Positions 11,965 through 53,386 of a DNA stretch of 64,000 nucleotides are shown here, piece after piece. Source of the stretch: Gemmatimonadaceae bacterium (GTDB lineage: Bacteria; Gemmatimonadota; Gemmatimonadetes; Gemmatimonadales; Gemmatimonadaceae); NCBI GenBank assembly GCA_035606695.1, contig DATNEW010000043.1:153621-217620 (forward strand), read 5' to 3'. The notes beneath the pieces were generated by a model that did no database searches, was not told the origin of the DNA, and saw only the letters and a list, made by a program, of their open reading frames with translations. The translations under genes were made by a program, and so were the position numbers. Within the stretch, counting starts at the first letter, position 1. Each line of letters starts with the position of its first letter.

Positions 11965-11999
11965 GAGCGATGGGCGTTGGGCGAAGGGCGCTGGGCGTG
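11965..11999. repeat. GGGCGAT/GGGCGTT heptamer repeat, copy 1
   Basis: The sequence GCGATGGGCGTTGGGCGA continues with GGGCGCTGGGCG: four or five heptamers sharing the core GGGCG. It lies in the dnaK 5' leader, ending about 14 bases from the ATG and leaving the Shine-Dalgarno site intact. Confidence 0.85.
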
Positions 12000-12134
12000 A
12001 CAAAACACCAGCGTTCTCGCGAACTGACCGTGGTAAGGGCAAGGACGGGACCCGCTTTTTGCGTCAAACTGGCAGCCAAACGCGGCCTGAACCTTGATCT
12101 GATCGGTAGCCTCCTGTCATCCGGTCAGGGCGCA

Positions 12135-12179
12135 CGCCCATCGCCCAACGCCCATCGCCCAACGCCCATCGCCCAACGC
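12135..12179. repeat. GGGCGAT/GGGCGTT heptamer repeat, copy 2
   Basis: Three exact copies of the 14-base unit CGCCCATCGCCCAA (12135-12148, 12149-12162, 12163-12176). They run directly into the ATG of the rhomboid gene at 12180. The orientation is opposite to copy 1, so the two sites flank the dnaK/rhomboid promoter region as a widely spaced inverted pair. Confidence 0.9.
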
Positions 12180-12962
12180 ATGATCCCGTTGTCCGACGAA
12201 AACCCGACGCTCCACACGCCCATCATGACGTGGATCATCCTCGGCGCCATGTTCGCGGTGTGGCTGGTCGTGCAGGGCGGCGGGCTGAACGACCTCCAGC
12301 TCGTGGCCAGCATTTGCAACTACGGCATGGTGCCTGGCGAGCTGACGCATCGCGTCCCGCTCGGCACGTCGATTCCGATCGCGCCCGGGCTGGCCTGCGT
12401 GATCGACAACAGCGCAGTCAACCTCTGGACGCCGCTGACGTCGATGTTTTTGCACGGAAGCTGGAGCCACATCCTGGGCAACGCGCTCTTCTTCTGGGTG
12501 TTCGGCAACAACATTGAAGACAGCATGGGCCCGGGCCGCTTTCTCTCGTTCTACCTGCTGTGCGGCTTGATCGCGGCGGCGACGCAGGTGCTCATCACGC
12601 CGACGTCGCCGGTGCCGACCGTTGGCGCGTCCGGCGCGATCTCGGGCGTGTTGGGCGCGTACCTGGTGCTCTACCCCAAGGTGCGCGTCAACATGTTCTT
12701 CTTCTTTCTGATCTTCTTCAAGGTGATTCCGATTCCCGCCTGGCTCGTGCTGATCTGGTGGTTCGGCGTGCAGGTGCTGACGGGATTGCCGGAGCTATCG
12801 ACCGTGCGGCCCGATGTATCGAGCGGCGTGGCGGTCTGGGCGCACATCGGCGGCTTCGTCGCCGGCATGCTGTTGATCAAGCTCTTCGAGAACCCGCGTC
12901 TCGTCGCGGCGCGGAACTCGATCCGCGATCAGCGCCGCTGGATGCTGCACCAGGGCGCGTGA
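12180..12962 (+). CDS. Rhomboid family intramembrane serine protease
   Basis: 260-aa polytopic membrane protease that cleaves substrates within the bilayer. Six or so hydrophobic segments are visible (for example TWIILGAMFAVWLVVQ and MFFFFLIFFKVIPIPAWLVL). The catalytic pair is Ser151 in VGASGAISG and His222 in WAHIGGFVAG, with the oxyanion-side HxxxN (HILGN, 97-101). The start is the ATG at 12180 (MIPLSDENPTLHTP). The bases upstream are the heptamer repeat, so no Shine-Dalgarno is visible. Translation of the longer open frame would read through the repeat and looks artefactual. Divergent from dnaK. Confidence 0.92.
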   Translation: MIPLSDENPTLHTPIMTWIILGAMFAVWLVVQGGGLNDLQLVASICNYGMVPGELTHRVPLGTSIPIAPGLACVIDNSAVNLWTPLTSMFLHGSWSHILGNALFFWVFGNNIEDSMGPGRFLSFYLLCGLIAAATQVLITPTSPVPTVGASGAISGVLGAYLVLYPKVRVNMFFFFLIFFKVIPIPAWLVLIWWFGVQVLTGLPELSTVRPDVSSGVAVWAHIGGFVAGMLLIKLFENPRLVAARNSIRDQRRWMLHQGA

Positions 12963-12989
12963 CCGCGATCAGAGTTTTCTAATAGACCG

Positions 12990-13457
12990 CTAATACGCGC
13001 GATGTTCGTCCCAGCGCGCGGTCCATTCGCCGCGGCCGGCCCAAGCGAGCATCGCGTCCCGCGTGACGTCGCGAAGTCCGGCGCGCAGCACGACGAGCGC
13101 GTCTTCGACGAATCCGGCGGCGGCGCCGCTCTGGCGCAGCACACATTCGATCGCGCACGCCAGCACCTCGACCTCGTACGCAATGTGCTCGGCGGTACAC
13201 TGCTGCGAGCGCCGGAATGCGCCATGGCTGCGAGCCACCGTGCGCAGCTGCTCGCGGCGGTGAACGCCGTCGGGCTGGCGCCCCTCATTGAACAGCTCGT
13301 GCAAGATGCCGCGGACGTCGCCGAACGCGTCGTCGAGCGGCATGGTGCGCCACGGGAGCTCGTTCTCGAGCATGCGGCGCCATGTACGAAGTACTGCGTC
13401 GAGGCGAATCGGAATGTCATCGCCCCACGCCCCAAACGCATCATTTCGATTGTGCAT
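12990..13457 (-). CDS. Unrecognised 155-aa protein, mostly helical
   Basis: The start chosen is the ATG at 13457 (MHNRNDAFGAWGDDIP), with GGTGGG a few bases upstream. The composition is soluble and alpha-helical, with a balanced charge pattern (EHIAYEVEVLACAIECVL and AAGFVEDALVVLRAGL segments) and no signal or membrane segment. Three cysteines are present. I do not recognise the family. The reading frame stays open for 136 further codons upstream, but that part is proline/arginine-rich and looks non-coding. Its partner upstream is another unknown gene at 13537-13938, and the two may form a small operon. Confidence 0.6.
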   Translation of the reverse strand: MHNRNDAFGAWGDDIPIRLDAVLRTWRRMLENELPWRTMPLDDAFGDVRGILHELFNEGRQPDGVHRREQLRTVARSHGAFRRSQQCTAEHIAYEVEVLACAIECVLRQSGAAAGFVEDALVVLRAGLRDVTRDAMLAWAGRGEWTARWDEHRAY

Positions 13458-13536
13458 GATCCCACCGTCGCCTACGGCGACGCAGCTGAAGTTCAGAGAG
13501 AACGCACGAGCAACGCGCTGCGTGCGCGAACCGAAC

Positions 13537-13938
13537 TCAGACGGTGCGCGGTGGGTGAAACGGTGGAGATGGCGCGACGCTCGCGGGGGCGGCATCGCGT
13601 CGATCGGCCGGCATCCGGGACGACCAGCCGTCATCGGCGGAGCCCGCGAGCGAGGGCAAGCCGGCGTTGACCAGGAATGCCGCGCGCCGTGCGCCGATGC
13701 GAATGGGGCGCGCCTCGTCGACCGACGGAATGCCGTCGTCGACCGACACGCCCGATTGCGTGGTGACGAATTCGGCGTTGGCGGCGTTCGCGGTGCGATG
13801 GCGAATGACGGGAAACGCCGCGCGCAGCAGACCGGCGACAAACCCCAGCAGCACGAGTGCGGCAAACGTGCGCCGCACCGCGGTCGCCGCGACGAGGCGC
13901 AGCAGAGTCAAGCGAGACCGGGCCGGATGAATTCCCAC
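13537..13938 (-). CDS. Possible single-pass membrane protein of unknown function
   Basis: 133 aa from a GTG at 13938. There is a basic N-terminus (HPARSRLTLLRLVAATAVRR) and one hydrophobic segment (TFAALVLLGFVAGLLRAAF, about 22-40). A soluble domain follows, with DDGIPSVDEARPIRIGARRA, and the tail is proline-rich. This is the pattern of a membrane-anchored periplasmic protein. An upstream ATG at 14055 is in frame but would overlap the arsR promoter and start. No family was recognised. Coding status is only moderately supported, by the membrane segment and by the order with the downstream gene. Confidence 0.45.
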   Translation of the reverse strand: MGIHPARSRLTLLRLVAATAVRRTFAALVLLGFVAGLLRAAFPVIRHRTANAANAEFVTTQSGVSVDDGIPSVDEARPIRIGARRAAFLVNAGLPSLAGSADDGWSSRMPADRRDAAPASVAPSPPFHPPRTV

Positions 13939-14018
13939 AGCGCGAATATACGTTCGTGCGGGCGGTGGATCAACGCGTGAGCTCCCAAGCTCCCCGCGTG
14001 TCCGTGGAAATTCCATCA

Positions 14019-14046
14019 TTGACACAACAATTTTCGTTGATATATT
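14019..14046 (+). promoter_or_regulatory. arsR promoter with overlapping operator
   Basis: Perfect -35 TTGACA (14019-14024) and -10 TATATT (14041-14046) with a 16-base spacer. Between them CAAC (14025-14028) and GTTG (14036-14039) form an imperfect inverted repeat where an ArsR dimer could block polymerase. Transcription should start at about 14053-14054, which is the ATG itself, so the arsR mRNA may be leaderless. Confidence 0.75.
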
Positions 14047-14053
14047 TTCGTTC

Positions 14054-14389
14054 ATGGCAGTGGCGATGCGAACCGGACCCGACGTCGATCGCGCGGTGGT
14101 GTTGTTTCACGCACTTTCCGACGCGACGCGACTCGGCATTCTCGACATGCTGAAGGATGGGGAGCGATGTGTGTGCGAGCTGCAAGACGAGCTCGACGCG
14201 GCCCAGTCGCGCCTGTCGTTTCACTTGCGCGTGCTGAAGGAGGCGGGACTGGTCACCGATCGACGCGAAGGCCGCTGGTCGTATTACACGATCGCGCCGA
14301 ACGCCTTGGCCGAGGTGCATGACATCGCTGTCGGGATGCAGCCGCGGCGAAACGGATTGCCGGTCCCGCGCCGTGCCTGTTGCGAGTAG
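14054..14389 (+). CDS. arsR: ArsR/SmtB-family metalloid-responsive repressor
   Basis: 111-aa winged helix-turn-helix repressor. HALSDATRLGILDML opens the DNA-binding domain and SRLSFHLRVLKEAGLV is the recognition helix. The metalloid site is the CVC pair in GERCVCELQ, the classic ArsR ELCVCDL position; another CC pair lies at the C-terminus (RRACCE). It starts the arsenic operon and is followed after 49 bases by arsM. Release from the operator on binding As(III) is known for the family; here it would derepress arsM and the genes that follow. Confidence 0.93.
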   Translation: MAVAMRTGPDVDRAVVLFHALSDATRLGILDMLKDGERCVCELQDELDAAQSRLSFHLRVLKEAGLVTDRREGRWSYYTIAPNALAEVHDIAVGMQPRRNGLPVPRRACCE

Positions 14390-14409
14390 GGTTTTGTCGT
14401 CTCCGATTC

Positions 14410-14425
14410 ATCAAATTTTATTGAT
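14410..14425 (+). promoter_or_regulatory. Second putative ArsR operator, upstream of arsM
   Basis: Perfect inverted repeat ATCAA (14410-14414) and TTGAT (14421-14425) around six A/T bases, in an AT-rich gap that stands out from its GC-rich surroundings. It resembles the TCAA-n6-TTGA core of ArsR-family boxes and could give arsM its own control point. Confidence 0.5.
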
Positions 14426-14438
14426 TGAGAGAATACTT

Positions 14439-15407
14439 ATGAATGCCGAAACGACCAAGGTTCCGATGACGCTGGAAGCGATTCGCGCGACGGTGCAGGC
14501 ACGCTACGGCGCGGCGGCCCAGCGTGTGGCTGACGGGGACACGAAGGGCGCATCGTGTTGCGGTCCCGCCGGCGACTCGAGCGGCTGTTGCGGCTCGACG
14601 AGCGAGTCGTGGGATCCGATCACGGCCGATCTCTACGAGGCGGGGGAGACGGCCGGCCTTCCCGCCGAGGCACTGCTGGCGTCGCTCGGCTGCGGGAATC
14701 CAACGGCGCTCGCCGAACTGCACGAGGGAGACGTGGTGCTCGATCTCGGCTCCGGCGGCGGCATCGACGTGCTGCTCAGCGCGAAGCGTGTCGGGCCGAC
14801 CGGAAAGGCGTACGGGCTGGACATGACCGACGAGATGCTCGCGCTCGCACTCGAGAACAAGGCGAAGGCCGGCGCGACGAACGTCGAGTTTCTCAAAGGG
14901 CACATCGAGTCGATTCCGCTCCCCTCGAGCACCGTCGACGTCATCATCTCCAATTGCGTGATCAACTTGTCGGGCGACAAGCCGCGCGCGCTGGCCGAGG
15001 CGTTTCGTGTGCTCAAACCGGGCGGGCGGTTCGCGGTGAGTGATGTGATCGTTCGCGAAGGATTGCCGGCCGCGGTGAAGGAGAGCATGGCGCTGTGGAC
15101 GGGCTGCGTCGCCGGGGCGCTCGAGGAGAACGAGTTCATCGCGATGCTTCGCGACGTTGGATTTGTCGACGCGAGCATTGAACCGACGCGCGTGTACACA
15201 CGCGACGATGCGGCGGCGCTGCTGCAAGGAACCGGGCTGGACGAATCGCTCGCCGATCAGGTGGACGGGAAGATCATGAGCGGGTTCGTCCGCGCAACGA
15301 AGCCGGGCGGATCGCCGCGCTCCGACAAGCCGCGCCGGAACCTCGCTGCACTGAGCGCAAGACAAGGTACACGCGAGTGTGGTTGCGACGACGGCTGCTG
15401 CACCTGA
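14439..15407 (+). CDS. arsM: Arsenite S-adenosylmethionine methyltransferase ArsM
   Basis: 322-aa cytoplasmic enzyme that methylates As(III) to mono-, di- and trimethylarsenicals. The class I SAM-binding loop is LDLGSGGGID (101-110). The three cysteines that bind arsenic in characterised ArsM proteins are present in their usual contexts: Cys85 (LGCGN), Cys173 (SNCVINL) and Cys223 (WTGCVAG). There are extra vicinal cysteines near the N-terminus (CC at 40-41 and 50-51) and a Cys-rich C-terminus (CGCDDGCC) that could help capture the metalloid. The start ATG is at 14439. It follows arsR and precedes an ArsN2-like acetyltransferase. Confidence 0.94.
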   Translation: MNAETTKVPMTLEAIRATVQARYGAAAQRVADGDTKGASCCGPAGDSSGCCGSTSESWDPITADLYEAGETAGLPAEALLASLGCGNPTALAELHEGDVVLDLGSGGGIDVLLSAKRVGPTGKAYGLDMTDEMLALALENKAKAGATNVEFLKGHIESIPLPSSTVDVIISNCVINLSGDKPRALAEAFRVLKPGGRFAVSDVIVREGLPAAVKESMALWTGCVAGALEENEFIAMLRDVGFVDASIEPTRVYTRDDAAALLQGTGLDESLADQVDGKIMSGFVRATKPGGSPRSDKPRRNLAALSARQGTRECGCDDGCCT

Positions 15408-15423
15408 CCATGAGGATATTGTG

Positions 15424-15918
15424 ATGACCACTTCGACGACGAGCGTTTCCGACTCCGCTTCGATTCGCGTCGCGACGCTCGACGATCTACCGGCGATCGA
15501 GCGACTGCTTCGCGCCGCCGAGCTGCCGACCGACGGCGTCGCTGGCATCGTGAAGCAGCACGCCGCCAACTTCGTCGTGGCCGAGGTCCGAGACGCTGAC
15601 ACCGATCGTCCGAGCCTGGTGGGCGTCGCGGGACTCGAGGTATGCTGCGACAACGCGCTGCTTCGATCGGTTGCGGTTCGCCCGGAGTGGCGCCAGCATG
15701 GCGTTGGCCGAACGCTCGTTCAGCGACTCGTCTGCGAGGCTGAATCGCGAGGCATTCACGCGCTCTTCCTGCTGACGATGACGGCGGAGCATTACTTCCC
15801 GCGGTTTGGATTCGAGCGAATCGAGCGCGGCGAGGTGCCGCCGGAGATCGCGGCGACGTTGGAATTCAAGTCGGCGTGTCCGGCGTCGGCGGTCGCCATG
15901 GTGAAGCCGCTCGGCTGA
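15424..15918 (+). CDS. arsN2: ArsN2-like GNAT acetyltransferase of the arsenic operon
   Basis: 164-aa GNAT-fold enzyme. The acetyl-CoA motif A is LLRSVAVRPEWRQHGVGRTL (Q/R-x-x-G-x-G/A type), followed by LFLLTMTAEHYFPRFGFERI. The EHYFPRFGF and SACPASAVAM segments are characteristic of the arsenic-linked ArsN2 group. ArsN1 acetylates organoarsenicals; the substrate of ArsN2 is not settled. The start chosen is the ATG at 15424, with AGGA nine bases upstream; a GTG one codon earlier is possible. The gap to arsM is 16 bases, so the genes are co-transcribed. Confidence 0.8.
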   Translation: MTTSTTSVSDSASIRVATLDDLPAIERLLRAAELPTDGVAGIVKQHAANFVVAEVRDADTDRPSLVGVAGLEVCCDNALLRSVAVRPEWRQHGVGRTLVQRLVCEAESRGIHALFLLTMTAEHYFPRFGFERIERGEVPPEIAATLEFKSACPASAVAMVKPLG

Positions 15919-15946
15919 ATCACCGAAACCCTGATCGCACCGACCG

Positions 15947-16705
15947 ATGCGAATCGCGCTCATCTCGGACATCCATGCGAACCTTCCGGCGCTCGAGGCG
16001 GTGCTCGATGACATCGATCGCGCGCACCTCGACGGCATCTATCATCTCGGGGATCTCGTTGGCTACGCGCCGTGGCCCAACGAAGTGGTCGCGATGATCG
16101 CGTCGCGCGGAATCGCCGGCGTCGCGGGAAATTACGACACGACCGTCGCCGCTGGATACAAGCACTGCGGATGCCGTTACGAGGATGCGCGACAGGAAGC
16201 ACTGTCCCATCTGTCATATGCGTGGACGCTGGAGAACACGTCAGCCGGCACGAAGGCGTTTCTTGGCGCGCTTCCGTTTCGCCTCGATCTGCGACCGAAC
16301 GGCGGCCACGTCTCCGGTCCGACCATCACGCTCCTGCACGGGAATCACGTGCTCAACACGGTCTACGTGACCGAAGATCGGTCGGACGACTTTCTCGCGA
16401 ACATGGCGGCTGGGGTCGGCGCACGCGCCGGCGACGTGGTTGCGTTTGGGCACACGCACAAGCCGTGGCATCGCGTCGTCGGCGACGTGCATTTCATCAA
16501 CACCGGCAGTGTCGGTCGGCCGAAGGATGGAGATTGGCGCGCGGGCTACGTCATCGTCGGCGTCGAACCGAATGGTGTCACCGTCGAATTTCGCCGGGTG
16601 GAATATGACGTCGAACGCGCCGCGGCGGCGGTTGTCGCGAGCACGCTGCCGAACGAGCTCGCTGAATTTCTGCGAACGGGTGGACAGCTGACCCCGAGCG
16701 TCTGA
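15947..16705 (+). CDS. Calcineurin-like metallophosphoesterase in the arsenic operon
   Basis: 252-aa binuclear metal phosphoesterase of the YfcE/Ap4A-phosphatase type. All metal-binding motifs are visible: SDIHAN (Asp8, His10), HLGDLVGY, GNYD, LLHGNH and GHTHKPW. A CGCRYED segment with two cysteines follows GNYD. No signal peptide, so cytoplasmic. It sits 28 bases after arsN2 and 3 bases before the aquaporin gene, so it belongs to the operon. Metallophosphatases recur in arsenic islands, but their substrate there is not established, and none is proposed here. Confidence 0.85.
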   Translation: MRIALISDIHANLPALEAVLDDIDRAHLDGIYHLGDLVGYAPWPNEVVAMIASRGIAGVAGNYDTTVAAGYKHCGCRYEDARQEALSHLSYAWTLENTSAGTKAFLGALPFRLDLRPNGGHVSGPTITLLHGNHVLNTVYVTEDRSDDFLANMAAGVGARAGDVVAFGHTHKPWHRVVGDVHFINTGSVGRPKDGDWRAGYVIVGVEPNGVTVEFRRVEYDVERAAAAVVASTLPNELAEFLRTGGQLTPSV

Positions 16706-16708
16706 CGC

Positions 16709-17413
16709 GTGCAATCACTCGCCCGTCGTTCGTTCGTCGAGGCACTCGGGACGTTCACGCTCGTCGCCGTTGGTCCGGGCGCGGCGATGGTGGCGGCGCG
16801 CACGCACGCGTTTGGGCCGGCTGGGATCGCGGCGGCGTTCGGGCTCGTCGTGACGTTGATCGTCGCATCGGCTGGACACTTGAGTGGCGCGCACGTGAAT
16901 CCGGCCGTGACGATCGGCTTCTGGTCGGTTCGTCGATTTCGCGCGCGCGAAGTTCCGGCGTATCTCGTCGCGCAGTGTATCGGCGCGGTCGCCGCATCGT
17001 TTCTGCTCGGCTGGCTATTGGGGCCCGTCGGAGACTTTGGCGTAACCGTTCCGGCGCTGCCGACCGCGCAGTCGTTCGTCGTCGAGATGGGATATTCGGG
17101 ACTGCTGGCGTTCGTCATCATGGCGGTCGCGACCGATCCGCGATCGCCGGCGTCGATTGCGCCGTTTGCGATCGGTCTCACCGTGGGCGCCGGTGCGTTG
17201 GTGACCGGGCCGCTGACGGGCGGCAGCTTCAATCCGGCGCGGTCGCTCGGCCCGGCGATGGCGTCGGGGATCTGGACCGCGCACTGGCTCTACTGGGCCG
17301 CGCCGATCCTCGGCATGATCGCGGGCATGCGCGTGTATGAGCTCGTGCGATCGGCGGATATGGGCCATGTGCCGACGGGAACCGAGGGGCCGATTGACGA
17401 GCGAGCAACGTAA
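16709..17413 (+). CDS. Aquaglyceroporin-like channel of the arsenic operon (AqpS-like)
   Basis: 234-aa MIP-family channel with about six membrane segments and two half-helix motifs, NPA at 64-66 (AHVNPAVTIG) and NPA at 175-177 (SFNPARSLGP). It starts with GTG at 16709, three bases after the preceding stop. In some bacteria an aquaporin (AqpS) replaces an ArsB pump and lets As(III) leave down its gradient. That role fits this operon, which has no pump, but selectivity cannot be read from the sequence alone; water or glycerol transport is the alternative. Confidence 0.85.
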   Translation: MQSLARRSFVEALGTFTLVAVGPGAAMVAARTHAFGPAGIAAAFGLVVTLIVASAGHLSGAHVNPAVTIGFWSVRRFRAREVPAYLVAQCIGAVAASFLLGWLLGPVGDFGVTVPALPTAQSFVVEMGYSGLLAFVIMAVATDPRSPASIAPFAIGLTVGAGALVTGPLTGGSFNPARSLGPAMASGIWTAHWLYWAAPILGMIAGMRVYELVRSADMGHVPTGTEGPIDERAT

Positions 17414-17518
17414 CTGACGCACGACGTTTCCGTCGCGATCGTGTATCGCTTGGACGGCGGGGAGGCGGGGGCTAACTTCGTTGGCGTTACGAATCGTGTC
17501 ACGCCCCCAGGGAGTCCC

Positions 17519-18136: not shown

Positions 18137-18164
18137 TCCCGACTCCTCGCTCCGAGCGCCGCGC

Positions 18165-19202: not shown

Positions 19203-19232
19203 CGTTTCCCTGGCGCGCGACGACTGGCCATC

Positions 19233-19254: not shown

Positions 19255-19268
19255 AACCGGCGGGACGA

Positions 19269-22017: not shown

Positions 22018-23067
22018 CTACTTCGATGCGACGTTCTTCACCATGCCGAGGCGCTTGTCGAGCATCGCGACGATCGATTTCGGCAGCGGCGAATAATCGA
22101 GTCCCGGCGCGTCATTCTCGCCGTCGTGGATTGCCCACTTGATGAAGTCGATGAGCTTCTTGCCCTTGGCGGGATCGGCCTGCGTCTGGCTCACGAGCAG
22201 GTAGGTGAACGACGAGATCGGATACGCGGTCTTGCCCGGCGCATTGACGATCGAGACGCGGAAATCCGTGTTCGCCGGAAGCCTCGTGGCGATGCCCGCC
22301 GCCGCTTCGGTGACCGATTCGATCGAGGGCAGCACGAACGTGCCCGCGGAGTTCCTGATCGCGCCGTAGGGCAGTTTCTTCTGACGCGCGTACGCGAGCT
22401 CGATATAGCCGATCGCTCCCGGCACCTGCGCGACCTGACCCGCGACGCCGTCATTGCCCTTGCCGCCCAAACCGACGGGCCACTGGAGATCCTTGCCCCT
22501 GCCCGGGCCGGACTTCCACGCCGTGCTCACGTCGGTCAGATAATCAGAGAAGATGTACGTCGTGCCGCTGCCGTCCGAGCGATGCACGACGAGAATATCC
22601 TTATTCGGCAGCGTGACGCCTTTGTTGAGCGCGGCGATCTGCGAGTCGTTCCACTTGGTGATCTTGCCGAGGAAGATGTTGGCGATGAGATCGCCGGTGA
22701 AGTTCAGCGGCTTGCCGAGATTCGGCAGATTGTACGTGATGACGACCGCGCCGAGCACGGTCGGGATGTGATAGGCCGGCGTCTTGAGCTTCGAGATCTC
22801 TTCGTCGGTCATCGGCGCGTCGGAGGCGCCGAAATCGACTGTGCCTTCGGTGAACTGTTTGACGCCGCCGCCCGAGCCGATCGGCTGATAGTTGATCTGT
22901 ACGCCAGTCTTCGCCGCGTAGTCCTTGAACCACTTCGCGTAAAGCGGTGCCGGGAACGTGGCGCCGGCGCCGTTCAAATCCTGCGCGGAGAGCCGCGGGA
23001 CAAACGCCAGCGCGGTGAGCGCAGCCAGTCCGACGTATCTCGCGTAACTCGAAACGCGTGCGATCAC
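22018..23067 (-). CDS. pstS: Periplasmic phosphate-binding protein PstS, soluble copy
   Basis: 349 aa from a GTG at 23067 with AGGAG seven bases upstream. The signal peptide ends VPRLSAQ (signal peptidase I type, no lipobox), so this PstS should be free in the periplasm. Family motifs: DLNGAGATFPAPLYAKWF, INYQPIGSGGGVKQF, DFGASDAPM, VHRSDGSGTTYIFSDYL and LQWPVGLGGKGNDGVAG, together forming the phosphate cleft. It is transcribed away from a second PstS (23331-24425) with which it shares most of these motifs. First gene of pstS1-porin-CHAD. Confidence 0.95.
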   Translation of the reverse strand: MIARVSSYARYVGLAALTALAFVPRLSAQDLNGAGATFPAPLYAKWFKDYAAKTGVQINYQPIGSGGGVKQFTEGTVDFGASDAPMTDEEISKLKTPAYHIPTVLGAVVITYNLPNLGKPLNFTGDLIANIFLGKITKWNDSQIAALNKGVTLPNKDILVVHRSDGSGTTYIFSDYLTDVSTAWKSGPGRGKDLQWPVGLGGKGNDGVAGQVAQVPGAIGYIELAYARQKKLPYGAIRNSAGTFVLPSIESVTEAAAGIATRLPANTDFRVSIVNAPGKTAYPISSFTYLLVSQTQADPAKGKKLIDFIKWAIHDGENDAPGLDYSPLPKSIVAMLDKRLGMVKNVASK

Positions 23068-23205
23068 GAGGTGCTCCTGTTGTCGTTGTGGGGGTTGGTA
23101 GTGCGCCTCAACCTCCATGCGACTCGTAAAGGAGCCATGGATCGTGTGTAACGCTTGCGTCACTGGCTGTGCCGAATGAGAACGGCCGGCCTCGAGCCGA
23201 GCTCC

Positions 23206-23245
23206 GTTACATGGCCGTTACATGACGTTACCTGGACGGTTGCAC
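23206..23245. promoter_or_regulatory. Pho-box-like direct-repeat array between the divergent pstS genes
   Basis: GTTACAT (23206-23212), GTTACAT (23217-23223) and GTTACCT (23227-23233), followed by GGTTGC near 23238: heptamers at 11-, 10- and about 11-base intervals. This is the spacing of PhoB/PhoP boxes, which are direct repeats one helical turn apart. The array lies in the only gap between the two divergent phosphate operons, so one PhoB (gene at 35696-36409) could drive both. Confidence 0.7.
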
Positions 23246-23330
23246 GATGCGGCGAGCGTTCGGCAAGGCTTTGACGGCGCATTCCGCGCCTGTGCCGAGC
23301 AAAGAAAACCATCCGCTGCCGGAGTGATTC

Positions 23331-24425
23331 GTGAGACGTTGGCCGATCGTCGCGCTTGTTTGCGTTGCCTGGGCCTGTGGCTCGAACGCCGACAACACAA
23401 AGACAACGGGCGATAGCTCGAAGGTCGCGGCGTCGACCACGGGCGGCGCGTCGGGTGCGGACCTGAACGGTGCGGGTGCGACCTTCCCGTACCCGATCTA
23501 TGACAAGTGGTTCAAGGAATACTCATCGAAAGCGAACGTGAACATCAACTATCAGCCGATCGGCTCGGGTGGCGGTGTCAAGCAGCTGCAAGAGCAAACG
23601 GTTGATTTCGGCGCGTCCGACGCGCCGATGTCCGACGCCGAGCTGCAAGCGGCGAAAGGCGGACCGGTAGTTCATTTTCCGACGGTGATCGGCGCCGTCG
23701 CGATCGCGTACAATCTTCCGGGTGTGACGCAGCCGATCAGGCTCACCGGTCCGGTGCTCGCCGACATTTTTCTCGGCACGATCAACAAGTGGAACGACAC
23801 GCGCATCGCCGCGCTCAACGCCGGTGTGAGGCTGCCTGCCACTGACGTACTCGTCGCGCATCGCTCGGATGGCAGCGGCACGACATTCATGTTCTCTGAT
23901 TATCTGAGCACGGTGAGTCCGGCGTGGAAGACGGGTCCGGGAAAGGGCAAAGACCTGCAATGGCCCGTTGGTCTCGGCGGCAAAGGCAACGATGGAGTGG
24001 CGGGTGTCATCAAGCAGACCGCGGGCGGCGTGGGATACGTCGAGCTCGCGTACGCCAAGCAAAACAATCTTCCGACTGCACTGCTGCAGAATGCGGCCGG
24101 CCAATTCGTGGCACCGTCAGTCGAAGGTGCGACAGCAGCGGCGGCGGGCGCCGCGGAGAAACTCGGCGCGAATACGGACTATCGCATCTCGATCGTGAAT
24201 GCGCCCGGCGCCCAGGCGTATCCGATCGCATCGATGACGTGGCTCCTCGTGTACAAGACCATGCCGAACGCGGCCAAGGCGAAGAAGCTCACCGATTTCA
24301 TGAAGTGGATGTATTTGACGGGCGAGCAGGAGGTGTCGACGCTCTTCTACGCGCCGCTGCCGCCGTCGCTCGTATCGCGGTTGACGGCGCGCGTGGACTC
24401 GCTCGCCGCCGGAAGCCCGAAGTGA
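23331..24425 (+). CDS. pstS: Phosphate-binding protein PstS, lipoprotein copy
   Basis: 364 aa from a GTG at 23331 with GGAG upstream. The signal peptide MRRWPIVALVCVAWAC ends in a lipobox (AWAC, Cys16), so this PstS is lipid-anchored. A Thr/Ser/Gly-rich linker (about 20-42) precedes the binding domain with DLNGAGATFPYPIYDKWF, YQPIGSGGGVKQL, DFGASDAPM and AHRSDGSGTTFMFSDYL. Its TGA overlaps the GTG start of pstC by four bases. It is the high-affinity receptor of the pstSCAB-phoU operon. Confidence 0.95.
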   Translation: MRRWPIVALVCVAWACGSNADNTKTTGDSSKVAASTTGGASGADLNGAGATFPYPIYDKWFKEYSSKANVNINYQPIGSGGGVKQLQEQTVDFGASDAPMSDAELQAAKGGPVVHFPTVIGAVAIAYNLPGVTQPIRLTGPVLADIFLGTINKWNDTRIAALNAGVRLPATDVLVAHRSDGSGTTFMFSDYLSTVSPAWKTGPGKGKDLQWPVGLGGKGNDGVAGVIKQTAGGVGYVELAYAKQNNLPTALLQNAAGQFVAPSVEGATAAAAGAAEKLGANTDYRISIVNAPGAQAYPIASMTWLLVYKTMPNAAKAKKLTDFMKWMYLTGEQEVSTLFYAPLPPSLVSRLTARVDSLAAGSPK

Positions 24426-43620: not shown

Positions 43621-43622
43621 CT

Positions 43623-44919: not shown

Positions 44920-44926
44920 GGACCGC

Positions 44927-47481: not shown

Positions 47482-47492
47482 CACACAACGCT

Positions 47493-47595: not shown

Positions 47596-47596
47596 G

Positions 47597-50059
47597 TTAA
47601 AGCGCCGCCTCCGCCTCCGCGCGATCCGCCGGCGTCGTCGCGCCCGCGAGGCCCGGCGACGGCTCCGGCTGCACCGCATCCGCCAACTCCTCGGGCACCG
47701 GCGGCAAGAGCGCGAGATGGAGCACCTCGTCCATCTTGTCGACGAACGTGAACGCCATGTTCTTGCGCACCTCTTCGGGCACGTCGCGCAAATCCTTCTC
47801 GTTCGACTTGGGCATGATCACTTCACGCAGCCCCGAACGATATGCCGCGAGCACCTTCTCCTTCACGCCGCCGATTTCGAGCACCTTGCCGCGCAGCGTG
47901 ACTTCGCCGGTCATCGCCACGTCGCGCCGCACGGGCCGTCCGCTGAGCGCGCTCGCGATGGCAAGCGTGAGCGTGATGCCCGCGCTCGGCCCGTCTTTCG
48001 GAATGGCGCCGGCCGGCAAGTGAATGTGCAGATCCGCCTCGCGGAACGTCGACTCGTCGATGCCGAGCTGCGTCGCGCGCGAGCGCACGTACGAGTATGC
48101 CGCGTCGACCGACTCGCGCATCACGTCGCCGAGCTGCCCCGTGACCGTCATGCGACCCTGACCCGGCATCTTGAGCGCTTCGATCAGCATGATGTCGCCG
48201 CCCGTCGACGTCCACGCGAGACCGGTCACCACGCCGACCTCCGGCACCTTCTCGGCTTCTTCGACCGCGTAGCGCGGAATGCCGAGCACTTCCTCGACCT
48301 TGTCGACGTCGACGATCCACGCGCCCTCTTCGCCTTCGGCCTTCTTGCGCGCGCGCTTGCGCATGATCGCCGCGAGGTTGCGTTCAAAGTTTCGTAATCC
48401 CGCCTCGCGCGAATAGCGGTTCGAGATGAACGACAGCGACTCGTCGGTGAACTGGAGGTCCTTGTCGCCGATGCCGTGCTCCTCGAGCAGCCGCGGCAGC
48501 AGGTACCGCCAGGCGATCTCGACTTTCTCCTCGACCGTGTAGCCGGCGATCTTGATGATCTCCATGCGGTCGCGGAGCGGAGCGGGGACGTCGAAGATGT
48601 TGTTCGCCGTGCAGATGAACAGGCACTGCGACAGATCGAACGGCAGGTTCAGGTAGTGATCGACGAACGAGTTGTTCTGGCTGGGATCGAGCACTTCGAG
48701 CATCGCCGCGGTGGGATCCCCCGACGGGCCGCCTCCCGACATCTTGTCGATTTCATCGATCATTAATACCGGATCTTTAACAGCCACGCGCCGCAGCGCC
48801 TGGATGATGAGCCCCGGCATCGCGCCCACGTACGTCCGCCGGTGGCCGCGAATCTCGGCCTCGTCGCGCACGCCGCCCACGGAAATTCGGTAGAACTCTC
48901 GTCCAATGGATTTGCCGATCGCTTCGCCGAGCGACGTCTTGCCGGTGCCCGGCGGCCCGACGAAGCAGAGGATGGGCCCGTGCGGATCGCCGCCTCGCAG
49001 TTTTCTCACCGCGAGGTACTCGATGATGCGCTCCTTCGCTTCATCGAGCCCGTAGTGCCGCTCGTCGAGCGCCGCTTCGACGCTCTTCAGGTCGATTTCT
49101 TCCTGCCCCGATTTCTTGTTCCACGGCAGCGACAGCACCCAATCGAGATACGTGCGCACGACCTGATACTCGCTCGACGCCGGCGAGAGCATCCGCATGC
49201 GCTCCGTCTCGCGCCGCGCTTCCTGGCCGACTTTCTCCGGCAGTTTCGCGTCGTCGATCTTGCGCAGGATGTCGATCGCTTCCTTCTCGCCCGGATCGGC
49301 TTCGCCCAGCTCGGCCTGGATCGCGCGCAGCTGCTGGCGCAGATAGAACTCGCGCTGGTGCTGCTCGATCTTGATCTCGGTCTGACGCTTCACGTCTTCC
49401 ATCACGCGCGCGCGGGCGACTTCGCGCTCGAGCCGCGTGAGGATGAAGCGCAGCCGCTGCCCGACGTCGAGGCGCTGCAGCACCTCGTCCTTGTCGGCGA
49501 TGCGGAAATTCATATTCGTCGCGGCGAGATCGGCGAAGCGGCCCGGATCGCTGACGTTCATCTTGAGAATCGCCGGCACTTCATCCGGAATGCGATCCAC
49601 GAGCTCGGCCAGCGTCTCGGCGGACGAGACGACGCGGCTTATGAGGTCGTCGAGCTCGTCGGGCGCCGGCGGCGTCTCGCGCGCGGCGCGCACGTTCGCG
49701 ATCGGATAGGGCTCGGTCTGCACCATCTCGTCGATGACGATGCGCCTGAGTCCCTGTAGCGTGATCTGCACGGTATCGCCCGGCAGATTGATGCGCTCGT
49801 GGACGCGCGCCGCGACGCCGACGCGTCCGTGAAACCGCGACGAGTCGATCGGTTCGTCGTGATCGCCGCTCGCCACGACCAGCGCGACGATGAGCCCAGG
49901 CTCTTCGTGCGCGCGCAGCAGCGAGAGGTTTTCCGGAGCGCCCATCTGCACCGCGATCGTCCCCAAGGGGTAGACGATCGTGGAGCGCAGCGCCATGAGC
50001 GGCAGGGTCGGAGGAAGCTCCGACTTGAGGATGTCGTCCTTGCGTTGAGCTTTCGCCAT
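47597..50059 (-). CDS. lon: ATP-dependent protease La (second Lon copy)
   Basis: 820 aa from the ATG at 50059, with a GAGG site upstream. It has the full set of Lon parts: N-domain with LPLMALRSTIVYPLG, QREFYLRQQLRAIQAELGE coiled-coil, Walker A GPPGTGKTS, and a protease domain with Ser692 (PKDGPSAGI) and Lys735 (GGVKEKVLAAY). The tail adds about 25 residues rich in Ala/Glu/Pro. It differs from the first Lon through its N-domain, AAA+ linker and tail, so the two are ancient paralogues. It has its own promoter region towards ffh. Confidence 0.97.
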   Translation of the reverse strand: MAKAQRKDDILKSELPPTLPLMALRSTIVYPLGTIAVQMGAPENLSLLRAHEEPGLIVALVVASGDHDEPIDSSRFHGRVGVAARVHERINLPGDTVQITLQGLRRIVIDEMVQTEPYPIANVRAARETPPAPDELDDLISRVVSSAETLAELVDRIPDEVPAILKMNVSDPGRFADLAATNMNFRIADKDEVLQRLDVGQRLRFILTRLEREVARARVMEDVKRQTEIKIEQHQREFYLRQQLRAIQAELGEADPGEKEAIDILRKIDDAKLPEKVGQEARRETERMRMLSPASSEYQVVRTYLDWVLSLPWNKKSGQEEIDLKSVEAALDERHYGLDEAKERIIEYLAVRKLRGGDPHGPILCFVGPPGTGKTSLGEAIGKSIGREFYRISVGGVRDEAEIRGHRRTYVGAMPGLIIQALRRVAVKDPVLMIDEIDKMSGGGPSGDPTAAMLEVLDPSQNNSFVDHYLNLPFDLSQCLFICTANNIFDVPAPLRDRMEIIKIAGYTVEEKVEIAWRYLLPRLLEEHGIGDKDLQFTDESLSFISNRYSREAGLRNFERNLAAIMRKRARKKAEGEEGAWIVDVDKVEEVLGIPRYAVEEAEKVPEVGVVTGLAWTSTGGDIMLIEALKMPGQGRMTVTGQLGDVMRESVDAAYSYVRSRATQLGIDESTFREADLHIHLPAGAIPKDGPSAGITLTLAIASALSGRPVRRDVAMTGEVTLRGKVLEIGGVKEKVLAAYRSGLREVIMPKSNEKDLRDVPEEVRKNMAFTFVDKMDEVLHLALLPPVPEELADAVQPEPSPGLAGATTPADRAEAEAAL

Positions 50060-50112
50060 AGACCTCGAGGTCGCGCAACAGTCGTTCCGGGGGGCACGGT
50101 CCCCGGCCTCAA

Positions 50113-50128
50113 TCACGTAAGTATAACA
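50113..50128 (-). promoter_or_regulatory. Extended -10 promoter of the second lon
   Basis: On the minus strand TGTTATACT (50120-50128) is a TGn-TATACT extended -10 motif. The start would be near 50113, about 54 bases before the ATG. No TTGACA-like -35 is at the right distance, as is common with extended -10 promoters. Confidence 0.5.
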
Positions 50129-50195
50129 CCGATTAGCCTTTAGCTAGTAGCGCCGTCTTGAATTGCCTCGGCGCATCCGCTACCTTTCCTGGTCT

Positions 50196-51536
50196 ATGTT
50201 CGACGAGCTGTCAGAGAAACTCGAAGCCACCTTCGCGCGCCTTCGCGGCCGCGGCGTCCTCAACGAAGCCGACATCAAGGAAGGCCTTCGCGAAGTCCGC
50301 CGCGTGTTGCTCGAGGCGGACGTCAACTTCCAGTTGACGCGCGAGTTCCTCGAGCGCGTGGAGAAGAAGGCCGTCGGCGTCGCGCAGCTGCGCACGGTTT
50401 CGCCCGGCCAGCAGCTCGTCAAGATCGTCTACGACGAGCTCACCACCATGCTCGGCGAGCAGCGCGAGGCGCTCAAGCTCAGCTCGGTGCCGCCAACCGT
50501 CGTGATGATGGTCGGACTTCAAGGTTCTGGAAAGACGACGACGGCCGCCAAGCTCGCGCGCAAGCTCAAGCTCGAGAATCGTCCGACGCGGTTGGTGGCG
50601 GCCGACGTCTATAGGCCGGCGGCTATCGATCAGCTCGAGACGCTGGGGCAGCAGCTCGACGTACCCGTGTATGCCGATCGCGGAACGCAGGACGTCGTGA
50701 AGATCGCGAAGGCCGGCATCGAAGACGCCAAGCGTGCGCGCGACCGTGTCGTGATCGTCGACACCGCGGGCCGCCTGCAGATCGACGACGACATGATGCA
50801 GGAGCTGGAGCGGCTCAAGGCCGCCATCCATCCGGATGAGATCCTGCTCGTCGCCGACGGCATGACCGGCCAGGACGCGGTGAAGATCGCGCAAGGCTTC
50901 GATCAGCGCCTGCACGTCACCGGTGTCATCCTGACGAAGATGGACGGCGATGCCCGCGGCGGCGCGGCGCTGTCGATTTACGGTGTCACGAAGAAGCCGA
51001 TCAAATACATCGGCGTCGGTGAAAAGCCCGATGCGCTCGAGGAGTTTTATCCGGAGCGCATGGCGGGGCGCATTCTCCAGCAGGGCGACATCGTCACGCT
51101 CGTCGAGAAAGCACAGACGGCATTCGATGCCGACGAAGCGAAGCGCCTGGAAAAGAAGGTCCGCAAGGAAGGCATGGACTTGACCGACTTCCTGGCGGCG
51201 ATGAAGCAGATCGAGCGCCTCGGACCGCTCGAGGGCTTGCTCAAGATGCTCCCGGGCGTCAATGCGAAAATGCTCAAGCAGGTCAAGGCGGCCGATCCCA
51301 AGCGCATGAAGCACGTGGAAGCGATCGTGCTGTCGATGACGCTCGAGGAGCGGAAGCGTCCGGAAATGATGAACGGCTCGCGCCGGGCGCGGGTCGCGAA
51401 GGGCGCGGGGCGGCCGATCAGCGAGGTGAATCGTTTGCTCGAGCAGTTCCGCGAGATGCAGAAGATGATGAAGAAGGCGTCGGGCGCCGCCCAGAGCGGC
51501 GGGAAGTTCCGGCCGAATATGTTTGGGATGCGATGA
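50196..51536 (+). CDS. ffh: Signal recognition particle protein Ffh
   Basis: 446-aa SRP GTPase that targets nascent membrane proteins. The start chosen is the ATG at 50196 (MFDELSEKLEATFARLRGRG). The N domain has the LLEADVN signature. G1 is GLQGSGKTTT and DTAGRLQ, TKMDGDARGG and GVGEKPDALEEF follow. The methionine-rich M domain spans about 300-446, ending GGKFRPNMFGMR. First gene of the ffh-rpsP-rimM-trmD-rplS run. Its stop codon overlaps the edge of a heptamer-repeat hairpin. Confidence 0.97.
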   Translation: MFDELSEKLEATFARLRGRGVLNEADIKEGLREVRRVLLEADVNFQLTREFLERVEKKAVGVAQLRTVSPGQQLVKIVYDELTTMLGEQREALKLSSVPPTVVMMVGLQGSGKTTTAAKLARKLKLENRPTRLVAADVYRPAAIDQLETLGQQLDVPVYADRGTQDVVKIAKAGIEDAKRARDRVVIVDTAGRLQIDDDMMQELERLKAAIHPDEILLVADGMTGQDAVKIAQGFDQRLHVTGVILTKMDGDARGGAALSIYGVTKKPIKYIGVGEKPDALEEFYPERMAGRILQQGDIVTLVEKAQTAFDADEAKRLEKKVRKEGMDLTDFLAAMKQIERLGPLEGLLKMLPGVNAKMLKQVKAADPKRMKHVEAIVLSMTLEERKRPEMMNGSRRARVAKGAGRPISEVNRLLEQFREMQKMMKKASGAAQSGGKFRPNMFGMR

Positions 51537-51611
51537 GCGCTGGGCGCTGGGCGATGGGCAGTGCAAACTGCGCCGTTTCACGCCCAACGCCCATCGTCCA
51601 CCGCCCAGCGC
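51533..51611. repeat. GGGCGAT/GGGCGTT heptamer repeat, copy 4, inverted pair
   Basis: The left arm GAGCGCTGGGCGCTGGGCGA (51535 on) and the right arm CGCCCAACGCCCATCGTCCA then CCGCCCAGCGC (ending 51611) face each other across about 18 bases. The left arm includes the ffh stop codon. It could fold into a strong hairpin between ffh and rpsP. Confidence 0.85.
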
Positions 51612-51689
51612 AGACCCGGGTGCGGTCGATCGGTTGGTCGACGCGCGAGGAGCCCGGAAGCACCACGAAACCTGAATGAGGATTTACTA

Positions 51690-52007
51690 ATGGCAGTCAA
51701 GCTTCGCCTCCGTCGGACCGGCCGCAAGAAGCAGCCGAGCTACCGCATCGTCGTCGCCGACTCGAGGAGCCCGCGCGACGGCAAGTTCATCGAGATCGTC
51801 GGCCAGTACGCTCCTCGTTCGGGCGAGCAGGCGCTCAATCTCAAGAGCGACCGCGTCAATTACTGGCTCGACAACGGCGCGCAGCCCACGGACACCGTCC
51901 GCTCGCTGCTCCGCAAAGCCGGCATTCTCAAGTCGCGTCACGAAGCGCGCCTCGGCCGCAAGCTCACCGCGGCCGCCGTGCCGGTCGGAGAGACGCCCGC
52001 GGAGTAA
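51690..52007 (+). CDS. rpsP: 30S ribosomal protein S16
   Basis: 105 aa from the ATG at 51690 ([20 protein letters not shown]), with GAGGAT upstream. [20 protein letters not shown] and the LKAGIL-type end are S16 signatures. The C-terminus carries a short Ala/Pro extension. Between ffh and rimM in the usual order. Confidence 0.98.
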
Positions 52008-52009
52008 CG

Positions 52010-52083
52010 TGATGGGCGATAGGCGTTGGGCGTGGGCGACACGATCGCACGCCCATCGCCCATCGCCCACCGCCCATCGCGAC
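52010..52083. repeat. GGGCGAT/GGGCGTT heptamer repeat, copy 5, inverted pair
   Basis: The left arm GATGGGCGATAGGCGTTGGG (52011 on) and the right arm GCCCATCGCCCATCGCCCAC then CGCCCATCGC (ending near 52080) face each other across about ten bases. It fills the whole gap between rpsP and rimM and ends at the rimM ATG. Confidence 0.88.
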
Positions 52084-52605
52084 ATGGATCTCGTCATCGT
52101 TGGACGCGTTCGCAAAGCCCACGGCATTCGCGGCGATCTCGTCGTCGAGGCAATCACCGACGAGCCGGACGCGGTCTTCGCGCCCGGCCGTCGCGTTTTT
52201 GCGGGTACCCCAAGCGGCGATCGTGCCAAGGACGGCAAGGAATTGCACGTCGCCAGCGCCACGCCGTTCAAGGGTGGTTACATCGTGCACTTCGAGGAGA
52301 TCGACGATCGCTCGGTCGCCGACACCTGGCGCGAACGATTCCTCCTCCTGCCCGCTGACGAGCTTCAACCGCTCGGCGACGACGAAGTGTACGTCCACGA
52401 ACTGCCCGGCATGCGCGTGGAGATGGAAAACGGCGATGTCATCGGCACCGTCGTCGCGACGTACGAGCTGCCGCAGGGACTCACGCTCGACGTCGAGCGC
52501 GAGCCCGGCCGCACCGTGCTCATTCCGTACGACCGCATCGTGACGAGCCTCGATCGCGAGGCGCGGCGCATCGTGATCGACCCACCGGTCGGCCTGCTCG
52601 ATTAA
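52084..52605 (+). CDS. rimM: Ribosome maturation factor RimM
   Basis: 173-aa 16S rRNA processing factor. The start chosen is the ATG at 52084 (MDLVIVGRVRKAHGIRGDLV); the RVRKAHGIRG motif is the RimM N-domain signature. A PRC-barrel domain follows (about 100-173), with LPGMRVEMENGDVIGTVV and IPYDRIV. The frame stays open upstream, but only through the heptamer repeat. No Shine-Dalgarno is visible between the repeat and the ATG, so translation may depend on coupling to rpsP or on the repeat structure. Confidence 0.95.
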   Translation: MDLVIVGRVRKAHGIRGDLVVEAITDEPDAVFAPGRRVFAGTPSGDRAKDGKELHVASATPFKGGYIVHFEEIDDRSVADTWRERFLLLPADELQPLGDDEVYVHELPGMRVEMENGDVIGTVVATYELPQGLTLDVEREPGRTVLIPYDRIVTSLDREARRIVIDPPVGLLD

Positions 52606-52611
52606 CGCGCT

Positions 52612-52661
52612 GTCATCCTGAGCGATTTACGCACTGTCATCCTGAGCGAAGCGAAGGATCT
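52612..52661. repeat. Dispersed palindromic element, GTCATCC family, copy 5 (two tandem left arms)
   Basis: GTCATCCTGAGCGATTTACG (52612 on) and GTCATCCTGAGCGAAGCGAA (52636 on) are two left arms in direct orientation, with no right arm. The second ends AAGGATCT immediately upstream of the trmD start. Confidence 0.85.
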
Positions 52662-52667
52662 CTTTCT

Positions 52668-53351
52668 GTGCTCCGAATCAACGTCGTCACGATCTTCCCC
52701 GAGTTCTTCACGACACCGCTCGGCTTGAGCATTCCGTCGAAGGCGAAGGAAGCGGGCAGCGTCGAATACAACGTGGTCGATCTGCGCGACTACACGCACG
52801 ACCGGCATCGCACCGTCGACGATTACCCGTACGGCGGCGGGGCCGGCATGGTCATGAAGCCCGGCCCGTTCTTCGAGGCCGTCGAGGCACTCGGCGCCAC
52901 GTCGCCGATCGTGCTGATGTCGGCGCGGGGCAGAACGTTCACGCATGCCGATGCGGTGCGGTTCGCGGCGGGCAGCGAGCTGACCCTGTTGTGTGGCCAT
53001 TACAAGGATGTCGACCAGCGCGTTGCCGACCACCTCGCCACCGAAGAGATCTCACTCGGCGACTTCGTGCTGAGCGGCGGCGAACCAGCCGCGCTCGCCA
53101 TCATCGACGCGGCGGTGCGCCTGCTGCCGGGCGCGATGTCCGACCACGACAGCGCGCGCACGGACTCGTTCTTCGAACGCGAGCTGAGCGCGCCGAGCTA
53201 TACGAGGCCGCCCGAGTATCGGGGCCTGACGGTGCCCGGCGTGCTCTTGTCAGGCGACCACAAGAAGATCGACGAGTGGCGCCGGGCCGAGGGCGACCGC
53301 CTGACGCGCGAACGCAGCAAGCGGGGCGCACGTAAGCCGGCCGAGGAGTAA
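52668..53351 (+). CDS. trmD: tRNA (guanine-37-N1)-methyltransferase TrmD
   Basis: 227-aa SPOUT-knot enzyme that methylates G37 of tRNAs with a G36 and keeps the reading frame. Starts with GTG at 52668 (LRINVVTIFPEFF). DYPYGGGAGMVMKPGPFFEA, LLCGHYKDVDQRV and EISLGDFVLSGGEPAALAII form the knot and SAM pocket. The nearest purine-rich site is AAGGAT, supplied by the palindromic repeat just upstream. Followed by rplS as usual. Confidence 0.96.
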   Translation: MLRINVVTIFPEFFTTPLGLSIPSKAKEAGSVEYNVVDLRDYTHDRHRTVDDYPYGGGAGMVMKPGPFFEAVEALGATSPIVLMSARGRTFTHADAVRFAAGSELTLLCGHYKDVDQRVADHLATEEISLGDFVLSGGEPAALAIIDAAVRLLPGAMSDHDSARTDSFFERELSAPSYTRPPEYRGLTVPGVLLSGDHKKIDEWRRAEGDRLTRERSKRGARKPAEE

Positions 53352-53354
53352 CGC

Positions 53355-53386
53355 CGCCCATCGCCCAACGCCCATCGCCCAACGCC
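53355..53386. repeat. GGGCGAT/GGGCGTT heptamer repeat, copy 6
   Basis: Two exact copies of the 14-base unit CGCCCATCGCCCAA (53355-53368 and 53369-53382), starting just after the trmD stop codon, without an inverted partner. Confidence 0.9.

Follow-up and report, generated by a model that had tools for sequence, protein, structure and literature searches.

A Gemmatimonadaceae bacterium (NCBI GenBank assembly GCA_035606695.1; 5.9 Mb, denoted G000) carries, in the 64,000-nucleotide stretch of contig DATNEW010000043.1 (C43) that spans positions 153621-217620 and is called the window below, six sites with runs of a 7-bp unit, GGGCGNT, whose N is free. These sites belong to a genome-wide family of arrays, or arms, that most commonly measure 31 bp, are concentrated between genes and crowd the gene edges, with the G-rich strand running from the nearer gene into the gap. 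The congeners of G000 share this architecture with different, almost mutually exclusive units, and a sequence-specific reader combined with lineage-specific dispersal is, we infer, what fits these features best. All six sites named by the sequence-only reading, an annotation made from the letters of the window, are present where it had put them, three of them in the ffh-rpsP-rimM-trmD-rplS operon.

Anatomy and placement of the GGGCGNT cassette

Within the window, the pattern GGGCGNTGGGCG has 33 matches with at most one mismatch (shuffle mean 5.4; 0 of 100 shuffles reach 33). Across G000, the 19-base three-unit pattern GGGCGNTGGGCGNTGGGCG has 188 matches (74+114), which fall in at least 57 separate arrays among the matches listed, and its reversed control has none (0+0). 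A gapless scan for arms, which scores the six constant positions of the unit and leaves N unscored, returned 43 arms in 1.22 Mb of contiguous G000 sequence versus 2 in a Markov-1 simulation, chance being estimated from a single simulated sequence per unit. With 42 arms from 31 further loci the set amounts to 85; because these additional loci were picked for exact matches, unbiased counts are restricted to the 43. A dispersed family enriched between genes had been surmised from the window, and it is borne out by genome-wide counts far above the reversed control and by a density that is not equal inside genes: 27 of the 43 arms are intergenic, though only 9.9% of the 1.22-Mb sample is, an enrichment of about six-fold.

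The commonest arm is a 31-bp cassette, GCGNT(GGGCGNT)3GGGCG, which contains five GCG cores and four GGG tracts. Exactly 31 bp is the length of 32 of the 85 arms (17 of the 43 unbiased ones), the start phase GCGNT is found in 59/85 and the end phase GGGCG in 51/85, and the number of GGG tracts peaks at exactly four (43/85; 18/43 unbiased). The six scored positions are constant at 94.5-99.3% (G tract 94.5-97.5%, C4 96.3%, G5 99.3%, T7 95.6%), and the free position is A 141, C 103, T 89 and G 55 times. Strings of N letters are unrelated across loci, with 7 identical pairs among 40 arms (6.0 expected). Adjacent N letters within an arm are equal in 48 of 120 cases (29% expected) and, together with the perfect tandem 14-mers of the window, verified at 12134-12179 (3.3 copies) and 53355-53386 (2.3 copies), this suggests some local duplication. 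Seventeen inverted pairs occur among the 85 arms.

In G000, 18 of the 27 intergenic arms lie no more than 6 bp from a gene end (6.5 expected for random placement in the same gaps); within 12 bp of a gene edge are 21/27 in G000 (9.5 expected) and, for the units of three congeners described below, 8/8 in G176 (2.9), 12/18 in G300 (7.7) and 5/8 in G254 (1.3). By eye, many arms start at a stop codon (TA-GCG, TGA-GCG) or end at an ATG (CGC-ATG). In 23 of the 27 G000 arms, at starts and stops alike, the G-rich strand starts at the closer of the two gene edges and reads into the gap, and the same inward orientation is seen in 8/8 arms of G176, 12/18 of G300 and 7/8 of G254, which makes 50 of 61 for the four species together when paired arms are treated one by one (p 2e-7). 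Unpaired arms point inward in 11 of 13 cases in G000 and in 21 of 28 across the four species (p 0.006).

A palindromic core that resembles a terminator and has A/T edges, AAAGGGCGACGG..CCGTCGCCCTTT, is flanked by some of the arms; its motif, GGCGACGG-N(3-16)-CCGTCGCC, was counted at 20 G000 places and at 0 to 3 in each congener. Repeat arms stand on one or both sides of the core at 11 of the 12 G000 places viewed: seven of the twelve have GGGCGNT arms, two have GGGCGTAT-like octamer arms, two carry octamers resembling GGCGTCGR on one side at least, and one (L321) is without arms. At C43:126262, one arm consists of heptamers and the other of octamers. Since at loci L317, L322, L325 and L323 the core carries octamer arms (GGGCGTAT, GGCGTCGR) rather than heptamers, 7- and 8-bp units coexist around one core. 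One 146-base element that includes the core has a predicted DNA fold of −69.2 kcal/mol (z −12.7), and G254 possesses a private core, GGGCGCGCCCACGGCGCGCCC, in 13 exact copies. A known RNA family was considered and rejected: the six loci holding or surrounding composite elements have no Rfam match at the gathering threshold, and the window yields tRNA only.

Two further observations concern G000. One array lies upstream of the gene at C1:128605-129487, and a second one close to the 3' end of this gene, whose product starts MRPIWTGALTFGLVNIPVRL (by eye) and is presumably Ku-like. On several contigs, a palindromic 10-bp repeat around GATCTGACCA forms short intergenic arrays and constitutes a separate family.

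Units and sites in congeners, the family and other taxa

The genus set comprises six genomes (G000, G176, G254, G298, G299 and G300) and the phylum sample 298, G000 included, of which 15 have any GGGCGNTGGGCGNTGGGCG match, the highest counts after that of G000 being 6 (G254) and 5 (G044). GGGCGNTGGGCG has 368 matches in G000, 41 in G254, 16 in G299, 13 in G176, 10 in G300 and 5 in G298, with reversed counts of 11, 10, 8, 7, 12 and 4, respectively. The unit GGAGNNT has 97 matches in G176, 2 in G298 and 0 in the other four (reversed control 14 in G176); the octamer GGTGGACN has 284 in G300 and 0 in the five other genus genomes (reversed control 21); and AGGGTNT has 20 in G254 and 0 in the five others. 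Arm lengths cluster at 30-33 bp for GGAGNNT in G176 (8 of 13 arms) and at 32-33 bp for AGGGTNT in G254 (6 of 10). That A is the randomised base of the unit was rejected, A being constant in GGAG units (though scored by the scan).

A near-perfect array of 14 copies of the heptamer CCACGCC lies in G254 (C1:6-105), and because it sits at a contig end, long arrays may break assemblies and be under-counted. The reversed control, made of GCGGGTN units, itself has 11, 2 and 5 matches in G016, G127 and G245 of the same family, a hint at further private heptamer families.

Among 300 comparisons of orthologous adjacent gene pairs, made on partial genomes with the main unit of each species only and with some gaps counted in two comparisons, an array of the main family is present in one or both genomes in 23 and in both in 1, and in that single gap the units differ (GGGCGNT in G000 versus AGGGTNT in G254). 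By eye, the ffh-rpsP gap holds GGGCGNT arms in G000, CTCTCTG heptamers with a partner in G254, CCGGTGA-like heptamers in G300, a short GA run in G299 and none in G176. Empty sites at orthologous loci are found in G176, whose gaps lack the array and are shorter: rpsP-rimM measures 76 bp in G000 and 13 bp in G176, trmD-rplS 131 and 95 bp, ffh-rpsP 153 and 89 bp, and dnaK-rhomboid 228 and 182 bp. The sequence-only reading had suggested a small mobile or slippage-prone element; because of these shorter, array-free gaps a small dispersing element is a fair description, whereas slippage as the main driver is not supported by the evidence weighed below.

The period extends beyond the genus. In a tandem-repeat scan of 80 Gemmatimonadaceae loci of up to 6.7 kb around trmD, selected by trmD similarity (one, L212, is very probably G176 itself), intergenic arrays number 21 of period 7, 5 of period 8 and none of period 2-6, and 2 period-7 arrays lie in genes. 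The 26 intergenic period-7/8 arrays sit in 16 of the 80 loci, and 15 of them have an inverted partner in the same gap; their units include GCGAGAT, GCGAACT, GGCATCA and GGGAGAT, and locus L224 also holds GGGAATC, the Xanthomonas spelling. Locus L266, from Roseisolibacter sp. H3M3-2, carries inverted arrays of GAGCGTC type close to trmD. Only 8 of the 26 have a GGG-containing unit, and no such unit occurs among the intergenic 7/8-bp arrays sampled from G176 (0 of 10) and G298 (0 of 11). By the G-over-C strand, orientation in the 80 loci is inward in 17 arrays and outward in 6, with 2 ties (p 0.017). Over all samples, intergenic tandem repeats of period 2-6 number 3 and those of period 7 number 64. 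Between genes, G000 is also rich in arrays of periods 9-12 (38 of period 10, for example), which mostly have two to three copies; in the genus samples, 41 of 147 arrays of period 9-13 lie within 12 bp of a gene edge versus 50 of 68 of period 7/8. A 50-kb stretch of E. coli K-12, of too little length to serve as a useful control, gave one Tandem Repeats Finder row each at periods 6, 10, 12 and 21.

Tandem heptamers are familiar from cyanobacteria, where the STRR heptamers (Calothrix) comprise several kinds per genome. They are mentioned in the introduction of Rehm et al. (2015, PMC4692102), a paper that, in the parts considered here, describes G-rich heptameric intergenic repeats with the units GGGAATC in Xanthomonas and GGGGA(C/T)T in Nostoc. 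Two Xanthomonas genomes are reported there to hold 186 and 183 arrays, 89% and 93% intergenic, with four units preferred, 70 and 75 inverted pairs, and arrays nearer the open reading frame (ORF) at the 5' side of the G strand whatever the ORF orientation; 83% of the repeats of Xcc recur in Xac. Because GGGAATC, to judge from those parts, shares unit length, preferred unit number, inverted pairs and gene-edge geometry with the present family, the earlier statement that no known element of this type exists was wrong. The repeats of G000 resemble the published ones in being tandem 7-bp units with a GGG tract dispersed genome-wide, in the preference for four units, in convergent inverted pairs and in having the 5' side of the G strand nearer the ORF; they are likewise over-represented between genes, but less so than in Xanthomonas. 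They differ in spelling and phylum, in that arm ends and length are quantified, in the GGG-free units of many relatives and in the terminator-like cores beside some arms. Unlike in the Xcc/Xac pair, sites of congeners rarely coincide here (1 of 23 array-bearing gap comparisons), and the units are different.

TAACTGA direct repeats, according to the parts of MacGregor (2015, PMC4679880) considered, occur in Beggiatoaceae, cyanobacteria and Bacteroidetes, the main genome containing 169 direct-repeat sets and one indirect set. Like the arrays described here, they are heptamer direct repeats, mostly no more than several nucleotides upstream of start codons and some beside ribosomal protein genes, with a patchy phylogeny and a suggested binding protein; in contrast to that one AT-rich unit of distant taxa, four congeners each have their own spelling here, and inverted pairs are many. 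New is the replacement of the unit between congeners, which the parts of PMC4692102 and PMC4679880 considered do not report. Among the open-licence papers listed by literature searches, which included these two, none dealt with heptamer repeats in this phylum or with species-specific spelling, and a search for the exact repeat sequence gave three unrelated matches.

Sites and neighbouring genes in the window

Arms and neighbouring genes, the latter identified by Pfam (Hsp70, rhomboid, ABC ATPase, SRP54 (Ffh), S16, RimM, TrmD and L19), are listed in Table 1.

Table 1. Repeat arms and adjacent genes, in positions of the window
Feature	Position	Strand	Remarks
dnaK	9993..11951	−	PF00012
Arm, GCGNT(GGGCGNT)3GGGCG type, upstream of dnaK	11967..11997	+	dnaK sense strand C-rich here
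Six-tract arm, three perfect 14-mers	12135..12179	−	Abuts rhomboid ATG (12180); inverted partner of 11967-11997
Rhomboid protease gene	12180..12962	+	PF01694
Degenerate arm, in-gene, N-terminal tail just past start codon	27103..27133	+	Second of two adjacent ABC ATPase genes
ffh ORF, start position provisional	50163..51536	+	PF00448
Left arm of inverted pair	51530..51559	+	First bases overlap last codon and stop of ffh
Right arm of inverted pair, ffh-rpsP gap	51581..51611	−	Fold z −4.9
rpsP	51690..52007	+	PF00886
Left arm of inverted pair, short, imperfect	52011..52032	+	3 bp past rpsP stop
Right arm of inverted pair	52050..52080	−	Ends 3 bp short of rimM ATG; fold z −5.3
rimM	52084..52605	+	Pfam RimM
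trmD	52668..53351	+	PF01746
Single arm	53355..53395	−	Begins 3 bp past trmD stop
rplS	53483..53863	+	PF01245

The two inverted pairs recognised earlier in the operon are confirmed at 51530-51611 and 52011-52080, whereas the arms at 11965 and 12135, previously taken as separate sites, are both present but make up one inverted pair across the dnaK-rhomboid gap. A likely Shine-Dalgarno (SD) sequence, AGAGGAA, lies between the arm at 11967-11997 and the dnaK ATG (by eye). The arm at 53355 departs from the inward rule, its G-strand reading toward trmD. We take the ABC ATPase gene that holds the in-gene arm to be PstB-like. The rimM product begins MDLVIVGR here, and MATLPPELIIVGR and MAIPTPELIIVGR in two congeners when their first ATG is taken as start codon (by eye); the N-terminal codons of rimM and the preceding bases seem to have been replaced by the array, with an N-terminus apparently shorter than in these two congeners.

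The rimM-trmD gap (52606-52668) is filled by two copies of another sequence, GTCATCCTGAGCG(AAGCGAAGGATCT), a repeat with dozens of matches in G254 and more than 20 in G299. Elsewhere in the window, two divergent reading frames at 22018-24425 share 402- and 184-nt stretches of 73-76% complementarity, apparently as a divergent paralogous pair, and regions 448-2012 and 47811-49363, about 47.3 kb apart, are 73-81% identical over several stretches, apparently representing two paralogous long genes.

Explanations for the cassettes

The explanation that we favour, tentatively and at a likelihood somewhat short of even, is that the nearly species-private cassette is a DNA-level mark of gene boundaries bound by a putative sequence-specific factor, two facing copies forming a predicted hairpin that would help to close transcripts. 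The six constant positions would be kept because something reads them, and the reader would differ between species, so that spelling varies among them but a period of 7-8 bp and a usual arm length of about 32 bp, perhaps three helical turns, are retained. Such a reader would account for six constant positions and one free one, for a footprint of about three turns and for independence from transcription direction; if it differs between species, it would also account for the turnover of spelling. After species split, cassettes may have spread to new gaps within each lineage, and paired arms with a core may stop or insulate transcription.

Several points weigh against a boundary mark of this kind. 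Its factor is hypothetical. The constancy of the six positions is inflated because the arm scan itself scored them; gene edges depend on a home-made codon-usage gene caller that favours ATG and SD-like starts, and 16 of the 43 arms lie inside called genes. GGGCGNT is imperfectly private, GGGCGNTGGGCGNTGGGCG having 6 matches at 3 places in the congener G254 and 5 in G044 of the same order. Arm lengths in G300 are bimodal (5/19 at 31-34 bp, 9/19 at 17-27 bp), and the inward rule is weak there (12/18, p 0.12; unpaired 6/10) and less clear in the 80 loci by purine strand (16 to 9). A partner within 250 bp is lacking for most arms (by scan, the 17 pairs take up 34 of the 85 arms), and in the pairs the N letters facing each other agree in 17 of 67 cases (30% expected), which gives no hint that a perfect hairpin is selected for. 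A strict terminator-like scan, finally, passes only 4 of 20 array gaps in G000 (23 of 638 gaps overall), 3/5 in G254, 0/14 in G300 and 0/6 in G176, which assigns terminators to a minority.

That the arms are essentially G-quadruplexes, with four GGG tracts and CGNT loops forming a DNA or RNA structure with an effect on how the neighbouring gene is transcribed or translated, we regard as unlikely. In favour are the peak at exactly four tracts, G3N4 being the spacing seen in G000 arms, and a geometry shared with published G-rich repeats whose oligonucleotides fold in vitro, for which a quadruplex role was considered and the function left unresolved in the parts of PMC4692102 drawn on. A need for quadruplexes would, however, predict conserved G tracts and free loops, whereas C4, G5 and T7, which lie in the loops, match the G tract in constancy, all six positions having been scored alike; the cassette spans 31 bp with fixed ends where 24 bp would suffice; and congeners use GGG-free units (the counts of 0/10 in G176, 0/11 in G298 and 8/26 in the 80 loci). 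With many units behind the recurring period-7 excess, and GGG in the unit of only 8 of 26 arrays, quadruplexes are unlikely to be its shared basis. It is quite improbable, in our judgement, that the arrays are palindromic terminators or mRNA-end hairpins of no special origin, in which a stem past the stop codon ends transcription or protects the 3' end: the pairs do fold strongly (z −12.7, −4.9 and −5.3), a bidirectional terminator-like core accompanies arms at 11 of the 12 viewed places of 20, and G254 repeats a core of its own, but a need for hairpins would predict matching arms and pairs, neither of which is true of most arms. One genome-wide spelling per species and fixed arm ends are left unexplained as well, and the strict scan passes few array gaps in G000 and none in G300 or G176.

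The REP/BIME class, which comes with RAYT transposases, consists of extragenic palindromes scattered close to gene ends that in some cases act on terminators or mRNA ends; here, by contrast, the arms are built of 7-bp direct repeats, and G000 yielded no Y1 transposase. A related idea, that the cassettes are REP- or MITE-like palindromic elements moved by a transposase, the arms being terminal repeats without a host role, has in our view a low probability. It would fit the lineage-specific sites (23 of 300 gap comparisons with an array, 1 in both genomes) and the core that often occupies 47-49 bp between arms at several loci. Against it, the Y1 transposase (PF01797) was found neither in G000 nor in four of the five congeners, in a search confined to this transposase family, whose control was positive in 5 of 14 genomes; no target duplication was seen by eye; and copying of a master does not predict six constant positions and one free. 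The TA at several outer ends was read as the start of TAG stop codons rather than as a target duplication. A plasmid or phage origin was rejected, the one composite element tested having no match in 72,556 plasmid or 50,697 phage records. A diversity-generating or telomerase-like reverse transcriptase was also rejected as common writer: G000 and G254 have one RVT_1 gene each and none was found in the other four congeners, and no arm lies within the fetched G000 locus of this gene (L338), that of G254 not having been looked at. Very unlikely, lastly, is functionless growth of local seeds in place by polymerase slippage, even if the perfect 14-bp arrays at 12135 and 53355, the excess of equal neighbours at the free position and the occurrence of 7-mer and 8-mer arms around the same core are in its favour. 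Free slippage would predict random ends, short periods and local spellings; one spelling in at least 57 arrays among the matches listed, the preferred phase at both arm ends, the modal length of 31 bp and the near absence of intergenic periods 2-6, the usual slippage units, speak against it as main driver.

Wider than the boundary mark itself, and doubtful, is the idea of a Gemmatimonadaceae "boundary code", a fixed architecture of about 32 bp and period 7/8 at gene edges whose spelling is replaced wholesale between species. If true, it would imply that whatever reads or writes the 7-bp repeats is species-specific and evolves fast; quadruplexes and terminators would then arise as side effects, and the heptamers of Xanthomonas, Nostoc and Beggiatoa would be further spellings. 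That at least four species of one genus write the repeat in different units yet keep its period, its placement and, mostly, its arm length amounts to a natural experiment. Comparing them sorts conserved features (period, gene edge, orientation) from variable ones (GGG tracts), allows quadruplexes and slippage to be tested as explanations, and points towards a step of recognition that is specific to the species.

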